NCBI GenBank assembly: GCA_018806915.1
Contig: JAGKQI010000025.1
Span: 1 to 64,000 of the forward strand
Reading direction: 5' to 3'
DNA: 64,000 nt
DNA from: Phytophthora colocasiae
Lineage: Eukaryota > Oomycota > Peronosporomycetes > Peronosporales > Peronosporaceae
Below the pieces are notes generated by a model. The model ran no database searches. It saw only the letters and a program-made list of their open reading frames with translations, and was not told the DNA's origin. The translations under genes were made by a program, and so were the position numbers. Positions 5,106 through 12,360 of this stretch are shown piece by piece (the first letter of the stretch is position 1; every line of letters starts with the position of its first letter).

Positions 5106-5130
5106 CCTGGTAGCACTTTGTAGTCCGTCC
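5106..5130 (+). promoter_or_regulatory. G2 primer-binding site
   Basis: Directly follows the LTR: CC, then TGGTAGCACTTTGTAGTCCG. The TGG start fits pairing with a tRNA 3' CCA end; the tRNA is not identified. The same site follows the G4-type LTR at 21,906, so two gypsy families share this primer. Confidence 0.6.
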
Positions 5131-5190
5131 CACGACCGACTGCAGTTCGTTCGTATGGAGTCATACGAACGCGGGGTCGAGAACTCCCCA

Positions 5191-6162
5191 ATGGATCAGG
5201 GATCCACTGGGACCCCTCACATGTCCGTGACGCGCACGGACTGTGCCCACCTGTCGGACCCAGAGTGAGAAGCTCTCCAAAAGACTTTCGCAAGTCATTG
5301 GAGAGGCGGGCGGTAGCGACGATGCTTCGTACGCTATCGTCAACAGAGCAACATGGTGTTGCTCTGGGGTACATTGCTAAGGAGCAACGAGATGTTGCTG
5401 CCTCGGTGCTTCCCGAAGCCACGCGTGGAGTCGTTGAAACTCCACGTCAGTACCTACACGGGGAAGGAGGACGAGACCCTCCTTCGTTGGCTCTGTCGAA
5501 CTTGATACAGCCGTTGCAGCTCGACGTATCGTCGATCCGATGTCGAAGGTCGCGTTCGCCATGTCATGTCTTGGCGGACGTGCGAGGAGTTGGTCCTATG
5601 GGCGCCGACTTCGGATCCTACGTGCTTCAGCACGTACGAGGAGTTCAAGGAGGAACTCAAGCTTGCGTTTGAGCCTCCGAAGAACGAGTTCAGATCGAGA
5701 GCGGAGTTTCTCGATTTGCATCAGGGCAAGGATGATGTTCACACCTTTGCCCAGCGTGCTCGATACTAGGTATCGAACATAGTGGCCAACCCGATCGACG
5801 AGGCGACCAAGGTCGTCACGTTCGCGAAGGGACTAAGAGATGGTCCCGTCAAGACGTATCTCTTCCGAGAGTATCCGAATACTCTCGAAGAGGCGATCAG
5901 CCTTGCAATGCAAGAGAAGTTTAGCCGGCGACAAGCTAAACTCCATGCGAACGACCCGAAGCCGGCGCGTCCTGTTGCGAAGACGGAGGTCCGGAACCTA
6001 TGGACCTCTCGAGTGCTACGACTGCTGGTCAACAGCAGCGTAGGAACAACGCAGGTTCGATGTTACAAGTGTAGTAACATCGGTCACTATGCAGTGAGTG
6101 CACAGCGGGCGGGCGTTCAAAAAACGTTGGCGACCAGCAGGCGCAAGGCGTCCTACTGGTAA
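5191..6162 (+). pseudogene. G2 gag (capsid and zinc knuckle)
   Basis: Frame opens at the ATG at 5,191 and keeps one frame to 6,162, but has in-frame stops in the first 300 bp and a TAG at 5,767-5,769. The capsid region includes STYEEFKEELKLAFEPPKNE and FLDLHQGKDDVHTFAQRARY, typical gypsy Gag text. After the stop comes EATKVVTFAKGLRDGPVKTY. Near 6,060 there is a damaged CCHC knuckle (CYKCSNIGHYAVS, with the last Cys lost). The product would coat genomic RNA in virus-like particles. This copy cannot make it. Confidence 0.8.
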
Positions 6163-6745
6163 TGCAGTCTCGCGTGTCGAACTCGGACACGCGACGTTGA
6201 AGGCTGCTGCCCCCAGCGAAAAGGTTTCTCGCTGTAAGCTGCAAGATGACAAGCCAAACCTTGTCATCCTGAACGTGATGTCGAAGAGAGTAAACTCTCT
6301 TCGTGCCCTAGTGGACTCGGGCGCGTCGAACAACTTTGTTCGATAGGAAGCCTTCGAAGGCTTGACGTCGAAGAGACAGGACACGCCTCGCGGTGTGTTG
6401 GAGGCGCGGTTGGCCACAGGTGCCACCGTAAGGAGAGAGAAGCGCGTGGTCCGTGTGCGCTTCTCTTACAAACGAAGGACGTTTGTAGAAGATCTTATCG
6501 TCTTGGATCTAGACGATAAGTTCGACTTGGTATTAGGCATGCCGTGGCGTGCACGGCATGACCCGGTGATCAACTGGGAGAAGCGTACGCTCGTACGCTT
6601 CAACAACACATGCGCGACCGAGAGCGATGGCCCTGTCAGTGCTGCCCATGCACCGGCCGGTGCATGTGAATCCCCAGTTGAGCAGCATCCGCCGCTGCCT
6701 CCGATCGCCGCCGGCGACCATCAACGACTCCGGGAGTCGTTGTGA
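6098..6745 (+). pseudogene. G2 retropepsin domain
   Basis: The segment has LRALVDSGASNNFVR, the aspartic protease active site (DSGA). A TAG follows at once near 6,344, then the same frame resumes and reaches DLVLGMPWRARHDPVINW, the second conserved protease strand. Spacing from DSGA to LGMPW fits a gypsy protease. The stop codon inactivates this copy. It overlaps the end of gag in another frame. Confidence 0.75.
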
Positions 6746-10062: not shown

Positions 10063-10770
10063 TTGCCGATGGCAGAGTTTGCCATCAACAACTCGGTGCA
10101 TGCCTCGACAGGGAATACATCGTTCTACGTGAACGCCATGAGGCATCCACGATTGCCGAGCATGCTCGGCGGGGTAGCTTCCTCCTTAAGTGGGGGAGGA
10201 TCTACGGTTGCGTCTGAACAACCGAAGAATGCAAGAGATAGCAGCACACTATCAGCTGCGGTGACGCGTGGCGACGTCTCGTTCGAGCACGAACGAGCGC
10301 GTGGCCGTGCCGGGCACAGACATGAGAGATGATAGCGAGCAGGCAGGGCCTGCTGTTGACAAGGGCGACAAGCTGAAAGGATTCAGCTCGGGTGCGCTAG
10401 ACTTGTCCAGCGAAGACAAGCCGTCATACGGTTTGTCCAGGATGCTATCGCAGCTTCTGTCGATCGACAGAAGCTGAACGTTGATAATGTTGGTAGGGGC
10501 AACATAAATGAATTCAAAGTGGGTTCATTAGTTTTGTTAGCTACACAAAACTTGCTTAAACATGATGCAGTGTCTGACTTTGGAGCAAGAAAGCTTGCTC
10601 CAAGATTCATTGGGCCGTTCAAAGTACTTGAACAGCACGGCAACGCGTACCGGCTGGACATACCGTCCAGCATGAGGCTCCACCCGACCTTCTACATCGG
10701 GCGGTTGAAGCCGTACGTGCAGCACGTACTACCTAGGGTTGGTAGCCCGACTGAGGAGTGCGAGAGGCCT
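10063..10770 (+). pseudogene. G2 integrase C-terminal region (GPY/F)
   Basis: Starts with PMAEFAINNSVHASTG, the end of the integrase core, then loses frame. From 10,519 a clean frame gives ARKLAPRFIGPFKVLEQHGN and LHPTFYIGRLKPYVQ, the GPY/F module that often targets gypsy integrases to chromatin. The sense frame stays open to 11,199 but beyond about 10,770 it looks unlike pol and overlaps the antisense frame on the other strand. Confidence 0.7.
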
Positions 10771-12260
10771 GGAAGGCCTTCTCGAGACCGTCAACGCGGT
10801 CGGTCGGTCAACCGGTTCAACACCGGACGAGAGGTTCGAGGCAGTGCCAGCTGCCTCGCAGACCTCAGCACAGAGGACACGAACCTCCTGCTTCAGAGCC
10901 GCTATCTCAGCGCTCTGTGTCTGCTCCAGCGCAGCAACTCGATCGTGCAGGGCACGATCGTCATGGTCATAGCGTTGACCATGCGGAGGAGTGTTCCCAC
11001 CCCTCCGCCGCCGTTGCGCGACGCGCGTGGAGCGATCCGCTGGATTGTGGAGCGGATCGTGGCTCATAAGAGAACGAACTCTCAGAGGTTCGTTTTCGTA
11101 TTCGTTGGAGAGGATTTCCTCCCCATCGAGATACATATTGCGGAACGTCCTGATGGAGGACGTTCCGGAAATGGTGAGGGCGTACGAAGCCCACTATAAC
11201 TTGCAGGGTTAAACCCTGCACGAGGAGTGCTGCGGTCAGCCACAGCACTCGGAGCTTCGCGTAGCACAAGACGACCACGAAGCTCCTTGATGTGATCGGA
11301 TACGCGGACAAGCGTGTACCCCAGGAGATCACTTTCTGAGAGACGTGTTGCCAAGGGTTGGCAACACGGGTAGGGTGTGCCGAAGGGAACGGCACATGGG
11401 ATCCCCGCTTCCATGGACTGATCATGGAGGCGTTCACACTTACCACGTGTAGTGTAAGTGTAGTAGCGATCGCGAGCCGCAGCAACGCGCTCGCGATATG
11501 CCTTCGGGTCTTTGTTGAAGTTTTCAACAAAGGCGTTCCACGACTGACAAAGTGCCTGCCACTCTGGCACTTTGCTCTTGCGCGAAGTCTTCTTCGCTGT
11601 ATAGTATCGGAGCTCGTGGAAGAGCCCGATATAGTAGTCGCGTCTTTGAGTCTCGGACTCAAAGACAACCTTAGCGGCGACGTCGTCGTCGTTGATACTG
11701 TTGCAGAGTACAACAGTATCGGGTTCGGTGGTGAGCTAGCACCGGACCACTCATGGATTTGTGCCTCAGTAGGCATCCATGGAGCACGCACTGGAGGATC
11801 AGTGCGTGGAGCAGTGAGCGCCCTCAACATGGGGGACGCTTCATCATCATTGCGCGGACGCTTCGAGCTTGAAGCGTCCGAGGCCTCAACATGAGGTCGT
11901 CGTGACCCCACGGGTGGGTCAGACGTGACTTCGGACGAAGACACGGGAGCGGGAGGATTGACATCAAGCTCTCCCTCCTCGACATCCTCGTCGTAGTCGA
12001 GGATGTCTTCATAGTCCTCTCCAAAGAGTTCTTTGAGAGGGACAGCAGGATTCTTAATCTCTGCTAGCGAAGAAGAGGTCTTCTTCGCTTGTTTCTCCTG
12101 TGGAGAGCATTGGTAGGCGGTGACAGAGAGCTTCTCTGTCGGATCGCTGGAAGCAACAGGTGCTAGTAGGCACTGCTGAGGTTGTTGTTCCTGCTGCAGA
12201 ACCACCACCAGCTTGCGCGTCCGCAGAAGCGGACGGAGACGTGGGCGTTGGCGAGTCCAT
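10729..12260 (-). pseudogene. G2 antisense gene (coiled-coil C-terminus)
   Basis: An extra reading frame on the strand opposite to pol, between integrase and 3' LTR. It begins at the ATG at 12,260, 100 bp inside the LTR, with a TTCATTTC initiator-like motif 2-9 bp upstream. The N-terminal part is Pro/Ser/acidic and low complexity (LDYDEDVEEGELD). The middle has EWQALCQSWNAFVENFNKDP and several Cys. The C-terminal part (~11,136-10,729) has HDRVAALEQTQSAEIAALKQ then EVRVLCAEV, a likely coiled coil. Frame shifts near 12,200, 11,650 and 11,080 break it. No known family is recognised. It is long, has protein-like composition and recurs in position in G4 and C3. Confidence 0.5.
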
Positions 12261-12345
12261 TGCGAAATGAACTCGGATTTCTCTCAGGAACTTGACGGTC
12301 TTGTCAAGTTCTGTTGATTGACGTGTCGATTCCGATACGTCGAAT

Positions 12346-12360
12346 CTTATCGGGGGATGG
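12346..12360 (+). promoter_or_regulatory. G2 polypurine tract
   Basis: TCGGGGGATGG directly precedes the 3' LTR start TGTAACGG. This is the expected primer for plus-strand DNA synthesis. Confidence 0.6.

Follow-up and report, generated by a model that had tools for sequence, protein, structure and literature searches.

The DNA analyzed here is a 64,000-nt stretch of the Phytophthora colocasiae genome (contig JAGKQI010000025.1, positions 1–64,000; hereafter the window), which contains G2, a Ty3/gypsy long terminal repeat (LTR) retrotransposon filled with short hairpins. Hairpins were also in excess in related families of the same genome, each with its own typical stem length, and stems varied less between lineages than their surroundings. 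The explanation that we favor, tentatively and at somewhat less than an even chance, is that the G2 clade of Ty3/gypsy LTR retrotransposons was shaped by selection into dense local hairpin arrays, LTRs included, which are read by a factor of the elements' own.

Hairpin density in G2 and its surroundings

Inverted repeats with loops of at most 10 nt were counted in the internal region of G2 (5106–12468). Arms of at least 6, 8, and 10 bp gave 141, 80, and 30 repeats, respectively, compared with 19.2, 1.2, and 0.0 in dinucleotide shuffles. An earlier reading of the sequence alone (the sequence-only reading) had described this region as a chain of hairpins, and the seven examples that it quoted all lie within one base of where it placed them. 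Its figure of one hairpin every 20–35 bp was an overstatement: 132 non-overlapping hairpins with a score of at least 7 were found in 7,363 bp, which is one per 56 bp, and 44% of the sequence is spanned. The array runs on through an antisense open frame, as that reading had noted, and into both LTRs, where stems of at least 6 bp occurred five times in 300 bp (5′ LTR; 0.64 in shuffled sequence) and four times in 302 bp (3′ LTR; 0.72). The sequence-only reading had mentioned neither the LTR hairpins nor the family-specific stem lengths described below.

Outside G2, the only part of the window that stands out is 58–64 kb, which holds part of the related element G4 (25 repeats with arms of at least 8 bp versus 1.2). 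Small excesses at this arm length were seen at 13001–22000 (8 versus 2.0) and 40001–51000 (3 versus 0.6), and the remainder was near background. Arms of at least 7 bp occurred twice at 26–34 kb (versus 3.0) and three times at 35–40 kb (versus 2.6), and arms of at least 6 bp occurred 27 times at 13–22 kb (versus 21.8). The claim that the G3 and copia elements lack the pattern holds for the stretches presumed to be them, which are near background, with element coordinates assumed and the elements themselves unclassified. In a genome sample of twenty 10-kb stretches, spaced evenly along one large contig (C22), there were 48 repeats with arms of at least 8 bp in 200 kb (0.24/kb), compared with 10.9/kb in G2; these stretches and the rest of the window, G4 apart, are thus far below G2.

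Coding frames were compared with 40 synonymous-codon shuffles, as the sequence-only reading had proposed. The G2 frames lay far above them, with nine stems of at least 8 bp at 7909–8772 (0.4 in shuffles) and seven at 10360–11196 (0.1). Counts in frames of the related families F_A and F_B (defined below) also exceeded their shuffles. The result for G4 was weaker, the shuffle maximum being passed in one of four frames for stems of at least 5 bp and in three of four for stems of at least 8 bp. No clear codon-register preference of the hairpins was found.

Organization of G2

G2 has paired LTRs, with reverse transcriptase (RT) ahead of integrase, as in Ty3/gypsy elements (Metaviridae). The pol gene of the copy in the window is broken across several frames. 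Of the 138 G2 RT matches scored genome-wide, more than 40 are in frames longer than 1,000 aa, and on this basis the G2 family looks recently active. The features referred to below are as follows (window positions).

4806–5105, + strand: 5′ LTR of G2, 95.7% identical to 12469–12770, with five hairpins of its own
4856–4878, + strand: 5′ LTR hairpin; its loop is the exact inversion of the loop of its 3′ LTR counterpart (12519–12541)
5106–12468, + strand: G2 internal region; the 132 hairpins are spread over both the coding part and that of the antisense frame
6804–6823, + strand: hairpin with a 10-nt loop that is inverted in copies L004, L008, and L010
7293–7552, + strand: tandem duplication, units 7293–7421 and 7424–7552, 85% identical, with hairpins in both units
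7933–8775, + strand: RVT_1, the RT part of pol (E-value 6.7e-25)
8216–8237, + strand: example hairpin, GTGAGAGGGA/TCCCTCTCAC
8642–8665, + strand: example hairpin with 11-bp arms, CCACGTACTTG/CAAGTACGTGG
9401–9889, + strand: Integrase_H2C2, zinc-binding integrase domain
10451–10476, + strand: perfect palindrome with 13-bp arms, the top score in the hairpin list
10519–11199, + strand: SH3_Tf2-1, Tf2-1-like SH3 domain
10967–12208, − strand: antisense open frame encoding 413 aa; it lies after the integrase part and before the 3′ LTR
12469–12770, + strand: 3′ LTR of G2, with four hairpins
12519–12541, + strand: 3′ LTR hairpin with the inverted loop
58001–64000, − strand: part of G4 (the extent given is this part only)

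The antisense frame had no Pfam match but has 39 related proteins, the named ones coming from several Phytophthora species. Identity to the Phytophthora relatives reached 75% over part of the frame and 66% over 84% of it (P. citrophthora), with about 30–44% for relatives in P. cactorum and P. idaei. The frame may be a genuine antisense gene carried by these elements. Two further repeats were seen: an AT-rich palindrome at 4991–5028 in the LTR, with a TATACTTATTTAAATAAGTATA core and also present in the 3′ LTR, and a tandem repeat of about 60 bp in G4 at 62774–62938, with units 89–96% identical.

The repeats are single-strand hairpins

At 7 bp, G2 contains 170 inverted repeats (3.6 expected), compared with two mirror repeats (3.2) and seven direct repeats (2.5). 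Direct and mirror repeats are not strongly enriched at the same geometry, so a general repeat-making process was rejected as the source. In some families, same-strand complement repeats were raised about two- to threefold (79 versus 42.6 in copy L033, 22 versus 8.1 in L039, and 8 versus 2.8 in G2).

The stems also respect a minimum loop. In eight pooled sequences, some of them closely related, the next inner pair after five outer pairs was complementary at chance level if only 0, 1, or 2 nt would remain as a loop (35/131, 92/347, and 61/246; 27%, 27%, and 25%) and in 40–62% of cases if 3–8 nt would remain. Because pairing respects this minimum of 3 nt, the G2-type unit is a true single-strand hairpin with a Watson-Crick stem and a loop of at least 3 nt, and double-stranded palindromes such as dimer sites are ruled out. 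The arm sequences are otherwise nearly arbitrary.

Stem length is specific to the family

Relatives of G2 were collected from the same genome (92.5 Mb, 105 contigs) by RT similarity, except that L020 and L029 came from sampled stretches. They fall into families whose names are labels of this analysis: F_A (L033, L034, L036, L037, L020, and L029), F_B (L032 and L039), G4-like (G4, L031, and L035), and G2 (G2 and L038). There are few relatives per family, and L033, L034, and L037 are 98–99% identical, as are L036 and L020 (99%), so pooled counts are not independent. F_A encodes a recognizable gag: L033 carries Retrotrans_gag (E-value 7.3e-15), RNase H, and Chromo domains.

A hairpin excess was present in all members collected, although its size varies. 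The typical stem length is about 5 bp in F_A, 6 bp in F_B, 8–9 bp in the G4-like family, and 9–10 bp in G2. The chance of one more pair was.46 before 5 bp and.24 after it in L033, and.25 after 5 bp in L029 (both F_A); it was.34 after 6 bp in L039 (F_B) and, after 9 bp,.15 in L031 and.11 in L035 (both G4-like). In G4 it fades, from.73 (7 to 8 bp) to.47 and.44, and in G2 it stays at.71–.76 from 5 to 9 bp and then drops to.48,.33, and.12. Stems reach a family-specific length, and beyond it pairing falls toward or to chance. Stem stability plays some part beside length, with GC-rich 4-bp stems of F_A raised about threefold and its GC-rich 6- to 7-bp stems raised less than AT-richer ones; a pure energy rule is not separable from a length rule. 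Distant gypsy RT regions (L012, L025, and L030; RT 21–30% identical) were near background, with 14, 23, and 13 stems of at least 5 bp compared with 17.5, 16.4, and 12.4 expected. No relatives outside this genome were found in viral_contigs or in genome_contigs (a prokaryote collection).

The ends of the stems differ between families as well. The outer base was C in 44 and G in 15 of 74 stems in G2, and G in 26 of 34 in G4, and C-G was preferred at the loop end in F_A and F_B; such family-specific preferences suggest a reader. Pairs of families have 3–10 hairpin centers in common, compared with 0.3–0.9. The sequence-only reading had stated that G4 and G2 have different hairpins, which is mostly the case, but in the pol piece G4 (35 centers) and the G2-family copy L038 (69 centers) have 8 in common, with a shift null of 0.4. 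Beside the F_B element of L032, the first 1 kb in sense orientation (opposite the 3′ part of pol) matches the 3′ part of G2 at 92%; this G2-like end is probably a nested or neighboring insertion.

Stems vary less than their surroundings

Stems were called on one F_A copy, and differing sites were counted between two others. With stems from L029, the L033-L036 differences occupy 12/806 sites in stems, compared with 16/338 in loops and 176/2756 outside (p = 2e-9, stem versus outside), and at third codon positions the difference persists (6/193 versus 60/645, p =.004). With stems from L036, L033 and L029 differ at 40/978 stem and 217/2535 outside sites (p = 2e-6).

In the G2 family, variants were compared among nine copies with stems from L038, L002 being dropped for bad alignment. 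Private variants were as common in stems as outside (32/707 versus 86/2009, p =.83), and shared variants were rarer in stems (9/707 versus 69/2009, p =.002). Shared variants were rarer in every setting: 6/710 versus 76/1995 with L002 kept (p = 2e-5), 4/637 versus 47/2078 with stems from L001 (p =.007), and 8/627 versus 71/2046 with stems from L002 (p =.003; private variants 32/627 versus 118/2046, p =.62). The evenness of private variants depends on the copy set; mutation cold spots in stems were rejected for the set without L002, and not in all settings. Among the private changes of the G2 copies, the two strands are alike (G>A 32, C>T 35). These comparisons support purifying selection on stems in the replicating lineage.

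Traces of template switching

An exact hairpin-loop inversion separates the two LTRs of the window copy (4856–4878 versus 12519–12541), and the 10-nt loop at 6804–6823 is exactly inverted in L004, L008, and L010. With two such inversions, template-switching-like events do occur in these elements. The scan for loop flips in the G2 set used 4 of its 11 copies as the starting sequence; no flips turned up among the differing loops compared in F_A (852 comparisons, many of which repeat each other), F_B (46), or L031/L035 (21).

Template switching had been offered by the sequence-only reading as a possible maker of the pattern, with paired arm changes across copies as a check. Such changes are rare, at 0–2 per within-family comparison, and a stem that is gained or lost mostly differs by a single substitution (between L033 and L036, 16 of the 24 losses). 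Arm-onto-arm copying would pair about half of all stem mutations, and the rarity of paired changes therefore speaks against it. Between families, differences split between the arms as in random windows, and in 46 of 50 directed comparisons, which overlap and are not independent, arm asymmetry was lower than the 95% range obtained by simulating one-arm copying; the simulation included no protein constraint. The four inside the range (L031-L033, L031-L036, L035-L033, and G4-G2) all involve the G4-like family, with 9–14 stems each. These simulations speak against whole-arm copying as the maker of stems. Hairpins persist in the tandem duplication at 7293–7552, where there are paired changes from A-T to G-C.

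Strand preferences

At the inner closing of stems, G·T was raised in F_A (35 versus 20.9 expected) and A·C was depleted (8 versus 19.8), which favors the plus strand. In F_B, where the set includes the G2-like neighbor of about 1 kb, the counts were 32 versus 16.6 for G·T and 13 versus 15.7 for A·C, and in G2 it was A·C that was raised (22 versus 13.7). Among F_A triloops closed by C-G, GNA occurred 8 times (1.5 expected) and its reverse, TNC, 0 times (4.6), again favoring the plus strand. By folding energy, the minus strand had a slight advantage in G2, L038, L033, L036, and L039 and the plus strand in L031, with no strand difference in G4, L032, L029, L020, or L035 (L034 and L037 were omitted as near-duplicates).

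Across 49 windows, each of 150 nt, the folding z scores of G2 were −3.57 (plus) and −4.21 (minus), compared with −0.58 to 0.38 in six control stretches. Folding energies of G2 and F_B are 3.6–4.9 standard deviations (SD) below shuffles on both strands; the margin on the plus strand is only 1.2–1.6 SD in F_A, and in the G4-like family about 1 SD.

An A·C excess among internal mismatches, first seen in G2, was lost when internal single mismatches were counted once (A·C 10 and G·T 11 in G2; 14 and 5 in L038). In F_A, G·T and A·C are enriched similarly.

Discussion

Selection explains the stems better than template switching, as far as sequence comparison can tell, because stems vary less than their surroundings, paired changes are rare, and differences fall in both arms. 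Under the explanation that we favor, the hairpins would act while the element is single-stranded, as genomic RNA or cDNA, and many weak hairpin sites would work together. A host-only agent fits poorly and an element-encoded reader better, because families in one host differ in stem length. Our best guess is that the reader would be Gag/nucleocapsid during packaging, the simplest candidate because Gag handles the genome as a single strand, and each family may thereby mark and recognize its own genome among many related ones. In yeast Ty3, RNA localization and packaging require sequences, not precisely delimited, in POL and in both untranslated regions (PMC11381356). A more specific proposal, which we regard as unlikely in its full form, is that families write their genomes as at least 100 hairpins of their own stem length, that each family's machinery recognizes its RNA (or cDNA) by this length, largely independently of sequence, and so prevents cross-packaging, and that families diverge by shifts in length.

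Several observations weigh against selection for a reader. Gag itself is a candidate reader only. Loops have no shared motif (the commonest F_A triloop makes up 13/173 and the commonest tetraloop 6/95), in which they differ from known packaging hairpins; hairpin spacing is irregular; and the outer base in L031 is unbiased. The ruler is not perfectly sharp, because the extension chance in L039 climbs again beyond 7 bp, where there are few longer stems. Single internal mismatches pooled from six sequences (A·C 30, G·T 25) give no preference for G·U, which is odd for selected RNA helices, and the strand signals conflict. Stem constraint was also uneven: it was weak with F_A stems from L033 (L036-L029, 61/1076 versus 183/2387, p =.04, with loops, 48/437, faster than outside) and from L036 (L033-L034, 19/978 versus 92/2535, p =.01), and absent for L033-L034 on L029 stems (26/806 versus 84/2756, p =.82). 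Most stem changes in this last comparison lie outside frame 1086–4049, where we suspect that the ends are misaligned. In G2, the shared-variant test rests on 4–9 stem variants, and private variants were rarer in stems when L002 was kept (68/710 versus 243/1995, p =.064 with arms of at least 7 bp; p =.016 and.029 with arms of at least 6 and 8 bp; 59/637 versus 269/2078, p =.012, with stems from L001). These results leave some room for a lower mutation rate in stems. Of the sequence-only proposal of selection for a strongly folded genomic RNA, selection for folding is supported by stems that vary less between lineages, also at third codon positions, and by the scarcity of paired changes, whereas a strongly folded genomic RNA is not established, given the lack of G·U preference over A·C and the conflicting strand tests.

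Host-driven shielding, in which hairpins conceal the RNA from nucleases or small-RNA silencing and are short enough to escape dicing, seems rather improbable. Stems this short would be poor Dicer substrates, the hairpins span coding and non-coding parts, and the strong folding of G2 and F_B on both strands would suit such a role. The modest folding of F_A and the G4-like family would not, nor would the irregular gaps between hairpins or the lack of preference for G·U, which would serve equally. Stem lengths that differ among families of one genome count against shielding too, and evasion of RNA interference, as suggested in the sequence-only reading, does not alone explain them. We are similarly skeptical that the hairpins act in DNA, either in single-stranded cDNA during reverse transcription or as cruciforms in the double strand. 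Near-equal G·T and A·C inside stems, the inconsistent strand bias, the loop inversions, and the hairpins in LTRs are all consistent with this; the inner G·T closings favor the plus strand in F_A and F_B, however, and we know of no DNA-level reader of such hairpins.

Template switching, in reverse transcription or replication, could rewrite one arm from the other and so make and keep stems without selection, a scenario to which we give little credence. The process is documented for RNA genes, where the loop inversion is a known signature of it (PMC8794818); such inversions were seen twice in G2, and the Watson-Crick arms, the paired changes in the tandem duplication, and the four comparisons within the simulated range would also follow from it. 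The 46 comparisons below that range argue the other way, as do the single substitutions and scarce paired changes that separate close copies, the lack of flips in F_A, F_B, and L031/L035, and stem length limits that vary by family. That the hairpins are a by-product of composition, codon usage, or protein sequence can be practically dismissed. Some do lie on naturally palindromic peptides (8642–8665 over Y-L-C-K-Y), and some centers are common to families, but synonymous and dinucleotide shuffles are exceeded many-fold in G2, F_A, and F_B, ruling out a by-product there; hairpins keep no codon register, and non-coding LTRs carry them as well.

The nearest known kinds of structure each fail one tested feature. 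RNA viruses with genome-scale ordered RNA structure have pervasive excess local folding across their coding sequence. G2 is alike in that its folding energies lie far under those of shuffles throughout the element (more weakly in F_A and the G4-like family), but differs in its short perfect stems of family-specific length, the lack of G·U preference inside stems, the lack of a consistent sense-strand bias, and the absence of RNA-type G·U pairing on the sense strand except at inner closings in F_A and F_B. Dispersed packaging signals of RNA viruses (PMC6281560 and others) are likewise many hairpins spread across a genome under coding constraint, but the viral ones have a recognition motif, often in the loop, whereas here loops are motif-free, ends have base biases only, and stem length is the common feature. 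Template-switch hairpins (PMC8794818) resemble the present ones in their perfect stems and loop inversions; here, however, differences are mostly not confined to one arm and are rarely paired. Among Ty3/gypsy elements, the likeness lies in the LTRs, RVT_1, Integrase_H2C2, and Tf2-1-type SH3 of G2 and in the gag, RNase H, and chromodomain of F_A copy L033. No described member with a hairpin-filled genome, and no hairpin-filled retrotransposon or family-specific stem length, was found in the literature searched, whose coverage left out most subscription journals and preprints; in yeast Ty3 RNA, as mapped, the core that is well folded makes up about 20% (PMC11381356).

If selection for hairpins read by the elements' own factor is the correct explanation, nucleic-acid structure rather than sequence would be one of the chief constraints on the genomes of a whole clade, and sister families in one host would each have a different built-in ruler. 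The many copies would then be a natural experiment on a structural message beneath the protein message, and would bear on how retroelements tell themselves from close relatives and on the share of template switching in hairpin evolution.

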